Positions 3,536 to 42,970 of a stretch of DNA of 64,000 nt are shown here, in pieces. The stretch comes from Brevundimonas subvibrioides ATCC 15264 (GTDB lineage: Bacteria > Pseudomonadota > Alphaproteobacteria > Caulobacterales > Caulobacteraceae): positions 2,604,001-2,668,000 of the forward strand of contig NC_014375.1 in assembly GCF_000144605.1 (NCBI RefSeq), written 5' to 3'. The translations under genes and the position numbers were made by a program. The notes beneath the pieces are model-generated. The model saw only the letters and a program-made list of their open reading frames with translations, was not told where the DNA came from and did no database searches. Position 1 is the first letter of the stretch, and each line of letters starts with the position of its first letter.

Positions 3536-3658
3536 TCCGGCCCTCCAACTGATCCGTCTGGGGATTTTCGAGGAGTCCACAGACGGGCCAATTCGATCCC
3601 CCGCCACGGGTACGTCCGGGCCTGTCGCAGGGGCGTGAGAGGGGTATGCGTTAACCCG

Positions 3659-5944: not shown

Positions 5945-6370
5945 TTATGCTGCAGTGCGGCGAACTTCGGCCTTGGCCAGCTCGACGGCCGCTCGCAGGT
6001 CGATCTGCTGCAGCAGTCCGCTCAGGGTTTCGTCGGGATCCTCGGGACGTTCCTCGCGCAAACCGCGGGCCATGCGTTCCAGCGCGCCCTCCCCGGCCTC
6101 GCCCGACAGCAGGGCCAGTTTCAGCTCGTCCAGCCGATCCAGAAGGCCCGCGCCGCGCCGGACCGCGCGCCGCCGCCGTTCGGTCGCCGTCTCGACGCCC
6201 TGCAGCGCCATCAGGGCGGAGACGTCGCTGACGCTCGAGGCCGACGACACGGCCTGGCTGGTCGCAGCGGAGGCCGCTCCGGCCCCCTGGGGCACGGAAA
6301 AGCCGCCGCTCGCGCGGACTGGACGTTGCCCGGCAGCGGGGCTGGTGCCCGATGGGCCGGTGACCTTCAT
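5945..6370 (-). CDS. fliX: Flagellar assembly regulator FliX
   Basis: A 141-residue protein of the Caulobacter FliX family, which couples completion of the early basal body to activity of the sigma-54 activator FlbD. The start MKVTGPSGT, a Gly/Ala/Ser-rich N-terminal third and the conserved C-terminal helical block (GVETATERRRRAVRRG, then LLDRLDELKLALLSGE and a final LRAAVELAKAEVRRTAA) match the family. The gene diverges from flgI, as described for Caulobacter. Start ATG 6370 gives the family N-terminus; the upstream in-frame start adds ten poorly matching residues. A GTTAAC motif sits about 55 bases upstream. Confidence 0.88.
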   Translation of the reverse strand: MKVTGPSGTSPAAGQRPVRASGGFSVPQGAGAASAATSQAVSSASSVSDVSALMALQGVETATERRRRAVRRGAGLLDRLDELKLALLSGEAGEGALERMARGLREERPEDPDETLSGLLQQIDLRAAVELAKAEVRRTAA

Positions 6371-6423
6371 GGCAGGGCGCTCCGTCGCATTCCCCACCAT
6401 CGCCAGACGACCGTCACCGTTTG

Positions 6424-6447
6424 GTTAACGAGGCGGCAGGATTTGCC
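6424..6447. promoter_or_regulatory. GTTAAC half-site and GGCA-N5-TGCC palindrome in the fliX-flgI divergent region
   Basis: GTTAAC at 6424-6429 looks like a CtrA half-site, suited to the class II fliX promoter. GGCAGGATTTGCC at 6435-6447 is a GGCA-N5-TGCC palindrome, the same form that occurs three times upstream of the flagellin at 41912-42745. It lies 54 bases before the GG of the flgI sigma-54-like promoter, a usual enhancer distance. An FlbD-type activator is the expected ligand. Confidence 0.5.
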
Positions 6448-6500
6448 GGGAGGCGTCCGTCGGCGTCGGGGCCTCCGTTGAAATGGCTGGGTTTTTCAAG

Positions 6501-6516
6501 CGGCACGATCTTCGCA
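6501..6516 (+). promoter_or_regulatory. Sigma-54-type promoter of flgI
   Basis: CGGCACGATCTTCGCA carries GG (6502-6503) and GC (6514-6515) exactly ten bases apart, close to the sigma-54 consensus TGGCACG-N4-TTGC. The predicted transcript would start near 6527, 27 bases before the flgI ATG. P-ring genes in Caulobacter are known sigma-54/FlbD class III genes. Confidence 0.6.
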
Positions 6517-6553: not shown

Positions 6554-7660
6554 ATGCAGAAACTGCTGACCGCCCTCCTCGCTCCGCTCGCCCTGGCCTT
6601 CGCCGTGGCCGGGACGGCGTCGGCGCAGTCGCGGATCAAGGACATCGCCTCAATCGAGGGTGTGCGCACCAACCAGCTGGTCGGGTACGGCCTGGTGGTC
6701 GGCCTGGCCGGCACCGGCGACAGCCTGCGCAACTGTCCCTTCACCCGCCAGTCGCTGGAAGGCATGACCGAGCGCCTCGGCGTCAACATCCGCGGGTCGA
6801 ACGCCAACTCCAAGAACCTGGCCGCGATCATGGTCACCGCCGATCTGCCGCCCTTCGCCACGCCGGGTGCCCGGGTCGACGTCTCCGTCTCGAGCCTGTG
6901 CGACGCCAAGAGCCTGCTGGGCGGCACGCTTCTGGTCACCAGCCTGCAGGGCGCGGACGGCAACGTCTATGCGGTGGCACAGGGGTCGGTTCAGACCGGC
7001 TCGGTGTCCGGCTCCGGGTCGTCCGGGTCGTCGGTCACGCGCGGCGTACCGACCGCGGGCCGCATCGCCTCGGGTGCCACGGTCGAGCGCGAGACCGGCT
7101 TCAACCTCGACAGCCTGCAGGAAGTCCGCCTCACTCTCCGCAACCCTGACTTCACGACGGCCCAGCGCGTCGCCGCAGCCATCAACGCGACCTATCCCTC
7201 GACGGCGCTGGCCGAAAACGGATCGGTCATCACCCTGCGCGCGCCGGCCCAGCTGGGCATGGCGGCCTTCATCAGCCGGGTCGAGAACATGCCCGTCGCC
7301 GTCGACACTCCCGCCCGCGTCATCATCGACGAGGTCAACGGCGTGATCGTGATGGGCGAGAACGTCCGCATCTCCACCGTCGCGATCGCCCAGGGCAACC
7401 TGACCATCTCGGTCCAGGAAACCCCGCAGGTCAGCCAGCCCGCCCCCTTCAGCCAGGGCCAGACCACCGTCGTCCCGCAGTCCGATGTGACGGTTGAGGA
7501 GGAACTGGGCCGCGAGATCCGGCTGGTGAACGGGGCCACGTCCCTGTCCACCCTGGTCAACGGCCTGAACGCCCTTGGCGTCTCGCCCCGCGACATGATC
7601 TCCATCCTCCAGGCCATCAAGGCGGCCGGGGCCCTCCAGGCCGAGATCGAGGTGCTGTGA
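6554..7660 (+). CDS. flgI: Flagellar P-ring protein FlgI
   Basis: A 368-residue periplasmic protein that forms the P ring around the flagellar rod in the peptidoglycan layer. It has a Sec signal peptide (cleavage near residue 24, TASAQ) and the family's opening SRIKDIASIEGVRTNQLVGYGLVVGL plus the closing RDMISILQAIKAAGALQAEIEVL. Length matches FlgI (about 365-375). It heads a three-gene unit with overlapping stops and starts; TGATG joins it to the next gene, implying translational coupling. The upstream region carries a sigma-54-like promoter. Confidence 0.97.
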   Translation: MQKLLTALLAPLALAFAVAGTASAQSRIKDIASIEGVRTNQLVGYGLVVGLAGTGDSLRNCPFTRQSLEGMTERLGVNIRGSNANSKNLAAIMVTADLPPFATPGARVDVSVSSLCDAKSLLGGTLLVTSLQGADGNVYAVAQGSVQTGSVSGSGSSGSSVTRGVPTAGRIASGATVERETGFNLDSLQEVRLTLRNPDFTTAQRVAAAINATYPSTALAENGSVITLRAPAQLGMAAFISRVENMPVAVDTPARVIIDEVNGVIVMGENVRISTVAIAQGNLTISVQETPQVSQPAPFSQGQTTVVPQSDVTVEEELGREIRLVNGATSLSTLVNGLNALGVSPRDMISILQAIKAAGALQAEIEVL

Positions 7661-7974
7661 TGAGCGACCTGACCGTCTCCGCCGACCTGCTCGCCCCCGC
7701 CCCGGCAGCGCCGAACGCGGCCTCCGCCCGGATGCGCGAAACCGCCGAGAATTTCGAGGCGTCGTTCCTGGCCCAGATGCTGAAGCCCATGTTCGAAGGC
7801 CTGTCGACCGACGGTCCGTTCGGTGGCGGAGAGGCCGAGGGCACATGGCGCAGCTTCATGATCGACGCCATGGCCAAACAGACGGTCAAGGCCGGCGGCA
7901 TCGGCCTGGCCGATACGGTCGTGGCCGAGATGGTCCGCATGCAGGCTCAACAGTCCACGGAGGTCGCTCCATGA
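7660..7974 (+). CDS. Rod-binding FlgJ N-domain protein (CheL type)
   Basis: A 104-residue protein corresponding only to the rod-binding domain of FlgJ, without the muramidase domain. The core ARMRETAENFEASFLAQML, then the MIDAMAKQTVKAGGIGLAD segment, is diagnostic of the family; the Caulobacter homologue is called CheL. It should cap the growing rod in the periplasm and recruit a separate muramidase. ATG 7660 overlaps the flgI stop by one base; its own stop overlaps the next start (ATGA), so the three genes are translated as a unit. Confidence 0.88.
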   Translation: MSDLTVSADLLAPAPAAPNAASARMRETAENFEASFLAQMLKPMFEGLSTDGPFGGGEAEGTWRSFMIDAMAKQTVKAGGIGLADTVVAEMVRMQAQQSTEVAP

Positions 7975-41911: not shown

Positions 41912-42745
41912 TTATCGGAACAGGCCGAGCAGGATCGAGGACGACTGGTTGGCGATCGACAGAGCCTGCACACCCAGCTGTTGCTTGGTTTGCAGCGACT
42001 GCAGTCGAGCGCTTTCCTTCGCCAGATCCGCATCGACCAGGTTGCCAATGCCGTTCTCGAGCGCGTCCGACAGCTTGCCGACGAACGTCGAGTGGGTGTC
42101 GAGCGCCTTGGCACCGGTACCCAGGCGAGCCAGGGAAGCGGAAACCTTGTCGATCGAGGCATTGACCAGACCCAGAGCCGTGGTGGCCAGGGTCGAGGTG
42201 CCGATGGTGGTCGTGGTGGCCACGGTCACGTTGGTGCCGCCCAGCGACAGGTTTTCACCCGCCACCTTGATGGTCGAACCCGCCGTGTTGGACAGGGCCT
42301 TGTAGCCGCCGGTGCCGGTCGAGTTGTCCAGCAGGTTCACGCCGTTGAACTTGGCGTTGGTGACCACCGTGGTGATCTGGTCGCGGATCGCCTTGAAGTC
42401 TTCGTTCAGGGCGGTGCGAGCCGCCGTCGTCAGAGACTTGTCGGTGGCCGACAGGGCCTTTTCCTTCAGCTGCAGGAGCAGATCGGAAACCGATTCACCC
42501 GCCGCGATGCTGACGTCCACGGCCGAAGAGCCGCGCGCCAGGCTGTCCTTGACGGCGCCCAGGGCGTTGACTTCCGAGCGTTGGCCTTGGGCGATAGCCC
42601 AGACAGCGCCGTTGTCTTTTGCGGAGTTGACCTTCTTGCCCGTGTTGATGCGGCTCTGGACAGTGGCCAGCTCCGAATTCGTGGACTGAAGATTTTGCAG
42701 GGCGACGAGGGCGCCCGAGTTCGTGTTCACGCTGTTCAGCGCCAT
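41912..42745 (-). CDS. Flagellin 2
   Basis: A 277-residue flagellin with standard ends (MALNSVNTNSGALVALQNLQ, RINTGKKVNSAKDNGAVWAI; LSIANQSSSILLGLFR) and a short Thr/Ala/Gly-rich middle. It is the promoter-proximal flagellin of the locus, read from a sigma-54-like promoter with enhancer palindromes and a leader of about 60 bases, and it ends at a strong terminator. It is probably the major subunit. Longer upstream frames lack flagellin features. Confidence 0.95.
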   Translation of the reverse strand: MALNSVNTNSGALVALQNLQSTNSELATVQSRINTGKKVNSAKDNGAVWAIAQGQRSEVNALGAVKDSLARGSSAVDVSIAAGESVSDLLLQLKEKALSATDKSLTTAARTALNEDFKAIRDQITTVVTNAKFNGVNLLDNSTGTGGYKALSNTAGSTIKVAGENLSLGGTNVTVATTTTIGTSTLATTALGLVNASIDKVSASLARLGTGAKALDTHSTFVGKLSDALENGIGNLVDADLAKESARLQSLQTKQQLGVQALSIANQSSSILLGLFR

Positions 42746-42817
42746 GACGAAAGTCCTTGTTTCAAGGTGTCCGACCGTCATTTTGACCGTCGGGAGCATT
42801 TTGCTCACGTCGACAGA

Positions 42818-42833
42818 AGCAATCGCCGGGCCA
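42818..42833 (-). promoter_or_regulatory. Sigma-54-type promoter of flagellin 2
   Basis: Read on the minus strand, TGGCCCGGCGATTGCT has GG and GC exactly ten bases apart and matches TGGCACG-N4-TTGC in nearly every position. Transcription would start near 42807, giving a 62-base leader; such leaders are the target of FlbT-type control in Caulobacter. Confidence 0.72.
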
Positions 42834-42907
42834 CGCGTCACGATTTCGACGCACGGCCAATATGCTGATTTCCCTACGGTACTTTGCCTTAACCACGCCC
42901 CTCACCC

Positions 42908-42970
42908 GGCAGAATGTGCCCGATACGACCGCTATCGGCAGAAAATGCCCGGCGGTCGGCAGTTCCTGCC
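42908..42970. promoter_or_regulatory. Three GGCA-N5-TGCC enhancer-like palindromes
   Basis: Copies lie at 42908-42920, 42937-42949 and 42958-42970, their centres 29 and 21 bases apart, close to whole helical turns. The first two also share flanks (CGGCAGAATGTGCCCG, CGGCAGAAAATGCCCG). They sit about 75-140 bases upstream of the sigma-54 promoter, as enhancers for an NtrC-type activator such as FlbD would. Confidence 0.6.

Follow-up and report, generated by a model that had tools for sequence, protein, structure and literature searches.

A probable divergent early and late flagellar control region of the Caulobacter type between fliX and flgI in Brevundimonas

The fliX-flgI region and its proposed mechanism

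In Brevundimonas subvibrioides ATCC 15264 the region between fliX and flgI very probably controls an early and a late flagellar gene divergently, as in Caulobacter: CtrA would drive fliX, and FlbD together with sigma-54 would drive flgI. It lies within the 64,000-nucleotide stretch of DNA that was analysed (the window, Table 1) and combines a CtrA-type half-site, a palindrome and a sigma-54 promoter; judged by the comparative data, this three-part layout is far beyond chance. The initial annotation took one short region to hold both an early promoter, served by CtrA, and a late one, served by sigma-54, with a shared activator palindrome, a view supported here by conservation, by the genome-wide distribution of the palindrome and by the presence of genes for FlbD and sigma-54. 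The sequence data establish which parts are present, how they are conserved and spaced, that they cluster at flagellar promoters, and that these two genes exist; the binding proteins, the transcription starts and the timing we infer from Caulobacter.

It is proposed that CtrA would act on the half-site TTAACC (6424-6429, minus strand) to give early transcription of fliX. FlbD, whose gene closes the fliF operon, would later occupy the palindrome (6434-6448), which would serve as an ftr element. Bound there, some 61 bp upstream of the -24 box, it would activate the sigma-54 polymerase at 6501-6516 for the transcription of flgI. The review PMC3930126 counts the genes of FlbD and FliX among the early genes that CtrA activates; it describes FliX as controlling FlbD, and FlbD as binding ftr motifs, repressing early genes and activating middle and late genes. 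PMC12421884 places Caulobacter fliX among the genes that fall upon loss of cckA function. The hierarchy of CtrA, FlbD and FliX is already known, and the region represents it in another genus. The present analysis adds the breadth of conservation and a spacing rule, and these make the question of feedback on fliX, taken up below, testable. The Caulobacter flagellar hierarchy would accordingly extend to Brevundimonas, and its fliX-flgI part also to distant Alphaproteobacteria. A literature search, which was not exhaustive, found no account of the fliX-flgI region in Brevundimonas, and one may exist in print.

Table 1. Coordinates of the window, the fliX-flgI control region and related features (window positions unless stated otherwise)
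Feature	Position	Strand	Basis
Window	2604001-2668000 of the 3.45 Mb genome		
fliX, flagellar assembly regulator, FlbD partner, 141 aa	5945-6370	-	Pfam PF10768, 140.4 bits
GGAG, ribosome-binding-like, for fliX (CTCC on the plus strand)	6380-6383	-	conserved CTCC alignment block
Predicted CtrA half-site GTTAACCAAA in fliX sense, likely fliX -35 region	6420-6429	-	conserved offset
GTTAAC	6424-6429	+	read directly from sequence
13-mer palindrome GGCAGGATTTGCC	6435-6447 (6434-6448 with the longer arms CGGCA/TGCCG)		
Palindrome CGGCAGGATTTGCCG, probable FlbD-binding ftr element	6434-6448	strand-neutral	conservation and recurrence at flagellar promoters
Predicted sigma-54 promoter CGGCACGATCTTCGCA for flgI	6501-6516	+	-24 GG 6502-6503, -12 GC 6514-6515
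flgI, P-ring protein	6554-7660	+	Pfam FlgI, 452.5 bits
Rod-binding (FlgJ-like) gene, 3' of flgI	7657-7974		Pfam Rod-binding, 48.7 bits
Flagellin gene	41912-42841		Pfam
Sigma-54-like site TGGCCCGGCGATTGCT near the flagellin palindromes	42833-42818	-	pattern search
Three GGCA-N5-TGCC palindromes upstream of the flagellin gene	42908-42920, 42937-42949, 42958-42970	strand-neutral	pattern search
flbD	L116:2383-3780	same strand as fliF and fliG, downstream of both	NCBI FlbD model NF050807, 807.6 bits (cut-off 750)

The sequence itself bears out the three elements that had been annotated, namely the 13-mer palindrome, the GTTAAC beside it and a GG-N10-GC pattern (6502-6515) with ten bases between its two halves. 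Pfam matches on both sides show that fliX and flgI diverge around these elements. The start of fliX is most likely at 6370, because the family models begin there and a conserved GGAG precedes it: position 1 of the Pfam FliX profile falls on the methionine at 6370, the NCBIfam FliX models likewise align from residue 1, with scores under their curated cut-offs (133.6 vs 175 bits), and the GGAG lies nine bases 5' of this start, 67 of the 80 regions compared having CTCC 5-20 nt away from the start of fliX. A start at 6400 was considered and rejected, since the family models begin at 6370 and the GGAG stands at ribosome-site distance from that position.

The putative sigma-54 promoter of flgI has two mismatches to the consensus TGGCACGN4TTGCW, a deviation that counts against the preferred reading. 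A site within two mismatches of this consensus is found in 49 of 62 Brevundimonas-like regions, 17 of 18 from other Caulobacteraceae and 24 of 26 class-wide, and the GG and GC at -24 and -12, ten bases apart, are conserved. The genome encodes one rpoN (TIGR02395, 407 bits). Inspection by eye, without scoring, revealed no convincing IHF site between the palindrome and the sigma-54 promoter.

Conservation of the layout

One scan of named genomes gave 80 FlgI loci, the closest FlgI relatives being mostly from Brevundimonas (91-93% identity). Seventy-nine of them were kept, L040 being left out as a stretch without fliX, and together with the window they form 80 regions, of which 62 are Brevundimonas-like and 18 come from other Caulobacteraceae (Caulobacter, Phenylobacterium, Asticcacaulis and unclassified). 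In all 79 loci and in the window fliX is divergent upstream of flgI. A class-wide search detected FliX in 132 of 240 genomes, and the 30 best-scoring loci of these 132, a sample that leans to typical FliX for that reason, were compared; fliX is divergent from and close to flgI in 27 of these best 30 of 132 with the window's own locus included. For the class-wide counts 26 of the 30 were kept, L193, L199, L205 and the window's own L190 having been dropped.

The arms of the palindrome are exact in 58 of the 62 Brevundimonas-like regions (0.31 in shuffles, largest 2), in 12 of the 18 other Caulobacteraceae regions (0.16 in shuffles) and in 21 of the 26 other alphaproteobacterial regions from the best 30 of 132 (0.36 in shuffles); the rows compared are related by descent, and the shuffles therefore overstate their independence. 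The layout was defined as a palindrome with at most one mismatch followed, 50-130 bp away, by a sigma-54 site with at most three mismatches. It is present in 60/62, 18/18 and 25/26 regions of the three sets, against 0.44, 0.17 and 0.33 in the respective shuffles. The distance from the centre of the palindrome to the -24 GG is 61 bp in the window and 60-62 bp in 58 of the 62 Brevundimonas-like rows, and in the alignment the palindrome, the sigma-54 site and the CTCC stand out as conserved blocks amid poorly conserved sequence. Three loci weigh against the preferred reading: L006 and L055 depart from the usual spacing, and L203 is divergent yet has neither palindrome nor sigma-54 site. As a contrast, 20 of the 108 FliX-less genomes among the 240 were checked and FlgI was found in four; the 480 bases that precede the FlgI domain match in each of these four, a small control, contain neither an exact palindrome (0/4) nor a sigma-54 site within two mismatches (0/4).

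The proposal that the three parts came together by accident draws on the window, in which the palindrome and the sigma-54 pattern, taken alone, are within chance. The 13-mer with up to two mismatches occurs three times there (2.17 expected), GGCA-N5-TGCC four times (2.09 expected, a number reached by 15 of 100 shuffles), and the sigma-54 consensus with up to two mismatches seven times against 8.93 expected, which makes this pattern, taken alone, uninformative there. The sole part beyond chance in the window is GTTAAC, with 6 copies vs 1.64 expected; for the palindrome and the sigma-54 pattern, significance from the window alone was rejected. Chance is nevertheless refuted by the shuffle-controlled conservation across the 80 regions and 26 distant ones, and its probability is negligible.

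The palindrome had been described as a repeat of one at the flagellin gene, which holds for the GGCA-N5-TGCC arms; the whole 13-mer is absent there, its nearest copies having two mismatches, and an exact repeat was rejected as the arms alone, not the spacer, are common to both. Each of the four window copies of GGCA-N5-TGCC stands beside a flagellar gene: fliX/flgI has one, and the three before flagellin follow each other in a row with starts 29 and 21 bp apart. The five further GTTAAC sites of the window are at 3650, 8443, 24712, 36269 and 41463, the last of them just upstream of a second flagellin gene.

FlbD and related palindromes in the genome

A motif search, suggested in the initial annotation, was run genome-wide. 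The bare GGCA-N5-TGCC was rejected as a marker on this scale (60 sites vs 161 for the reversed pattern). The refined palindrome GGCADNWNHTGCC, with an A/T centre, has 14 sites in the genome. Seven of the 14 lie upstream of flagellar genes (fliX/flgI, flagellin twice, fliF, fliL/flgF, flgB and fliQ), a proportion that is descriptive and not a blind test because the pattern was chosen after the sites had been viewed. Six of the remaining sites are inside other predicted genes and one is at a gene edge. Of the flagellar genes named here and below, Pfam confirmed fliF, fliG and fliQ and placed the flgB product no more closely than in the rod family, while fliL, flgF and flgK were identified by eye from their translations.

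A palindromic GGC...GCC element lies near a predicted sigma-54 flagellar promoter, palindromes of its class recur at other presumed FlbD target operons (flagellin, fliF, fliL/flgF, flgK and others), and FlbD is encoded in the same genome. The palindrome is very probably an ftr element and its activator FlbD, as judged from these sequence features. The shared palindrome had been put forward as defining a testable activator motif; its recurrence at flagellar promoters agrees with that role, and the motif is very probably the FlbD/ftr element known from Caulobacter. The palindromes at the CtrA-type early promoters of fliF, flgB and fliQ had been overlooked. A site for another enhancer-binding protein of the NtrC, NtrX or TacA type could be considered in place of FlbD, as the sigma-54 activator domain has eight matches in the genome, of which four are strong, FlbD included. 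The refined motif is, however, concentrated at flagellar promoters, the palindrome is absent before FlgI in the four FliX-negative genomes, and FliX is a known FlbD partner, so that such a site is very unlikely.

Two further regions of the genome carry related elements. The fliL/flgF region is a second divergent early/late region (L111 1440-1600, G000:C1 about 2865870-2866030), in which TTGGTTAAC, the palindrome CGGCAAGTTTTGCCG and then TGGCACGGACGTTGCG follow each other in the fliX/flgI order with a longer gap between CtrA site and palindrome. At flgK (L211 1381-1534, G000:C1 about 1428915-1429068) the palindrome is about 125 bp downstream of a sigma-54-like site, beside the start codon, and resembles the reported downstream ftr sites of Caulobacter flaN/flbG.

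The putative CtrA half-site and its fixed spacing

A TTAACC-type half-site is conserved before fliX. GTTAA precedes GGCA by 11 bases in 59 of the 62 Brevundimonas-like regions and by 10 bases in 15 of the 18 regions from other Caulobacteraceae. The full site TTAA-N7-TTAA, which is present at the fliF promoter of the same genome, was found near the palindrome in none of the 80 regions, and this counts against the preferred reading.

Read in the sense of fliX, the order is palindrome, N6, TTAACC. Of 101 Brevundimonas genomes, 84 carry this combination, almost without exception as a single copy, against one match across the 101 genomes for the reversed-pattern control and 0/101 for a spacing of N9. 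Its sole copy in the genome studied here is that of fliX/flgI, and all 30 copies fetched from the 84 genomes with a match lie between fliX and flgI. The opposite order, TTAACC-N8-palindrome, is present in 98 of the 101 genomes; 30 copies fetched from these 98 belong to fliQ (15), flgB (14) and flgK (1), and the genome studied here has four, before fliF, flgB, fliQ and flgK. The TTAACC at flgK points away from the gene and adjoins its ribosome site, and for these reasons is probably no CtrA promoter. The fixed spacing in relatives is the newer and less expected point, the parts being known Caulobacter logic. Palindrome-N6-TTAACC at fliX and TTAACC-N8-palindrome at early operons would form a searchable grammar from which FlbD targets could be predicted from sequence.

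A second GGTTAA is seen just after the flgI -12 box in 14 of the 80 regions, 84-85 bases from the start of the palindrome, a placement that might allow CtrA to act over the start of flgI as well. These regions include L033, L034, L035, L038, L047 and L048 and the Brevundimonas diminuta group.

The spacing bears on an extension of the preferred reading, which it does not exclude, in which the FlbD site would also shut off fliX. A second CtrA half-site (N7 away) would fall where the palindrome lies. For this reason FlbD may exclude CtrA and lower fliX, so that the protein which turns on flgI may also be the one that shuts off fliX. That the FlbD site has this dual role is possible and somewhat doubtful. 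It is favoured by the five bases that separate the palindrome from GTTAAC, by the fixed N6 in 84 of 101 genomes, by the early promoters at which a palindrome stands 8 bp away from TTAACC and by the precedent of fliF, which FlbD represses through ftr4 as described in PMC3930126. Against it, the geometry differs, since the palindrome is downstream of TTAACC at fliF, flgB and fliQ and upstream of it at fliX; a 6-bp gap seldom gains insertions or deletions, and the fixed spacing may in part reflect the short distance; and the adjacency of palindrome and CtrA site is mostly absent outside Caulobacteraceae. We hold it equally tentatively that a handover takes place, in which FlbD at the palindrome would exclude CtrA from the half-site and a single binding event would start flgI and stop fliX. 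If true, the handover would be a negative feedback on the gene of FlbD's own partner FliX, and the switch would be common to all of Brevundimonas and would recur, one base shorter, in Caulobacter and Phenylobacterium.

Comparison with known systems

The preferred reading, with CtrA at fliX and FlbD and sigma-54 at flgI, is closest to the FlbD/ftr system of Caulobacter crescentus, with which the region shares a palindrome about 60-130 bp from a -24/-12 promoter, an encoded FliX and middle or late flagellar targets. In Caulobacter, too, the FlbD gene stands last in the fliF operon. The present system differs in belonging to another genus, and it is likened to that of Caulobacter by layout and gene context. 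With ftr4 at fliF it may be compared through the sites that lie 8 bp downstream of TTAACC in this genome, GGCAGTTTCTGCC at fliF and fliQ and GGCATTTTCTGCC at flgB; unlike ftr4, the fliX palindrome is upstream of the CtrA half-site, and repression there is a proposal. As in CtrA class II promoters, TTAACC stands at the expected -35 position before the fliX start, whereas fliX has the half-site only (full site 0/80). Mohr et al. reportedly described in 1998 that Caulobacter fliX is divergent from flgI, with separate promoters. The same divergence is found here, and the arrangement extends to 26 of the 29 other alphaproteobacterial FliX loci among the best 30 of 132.
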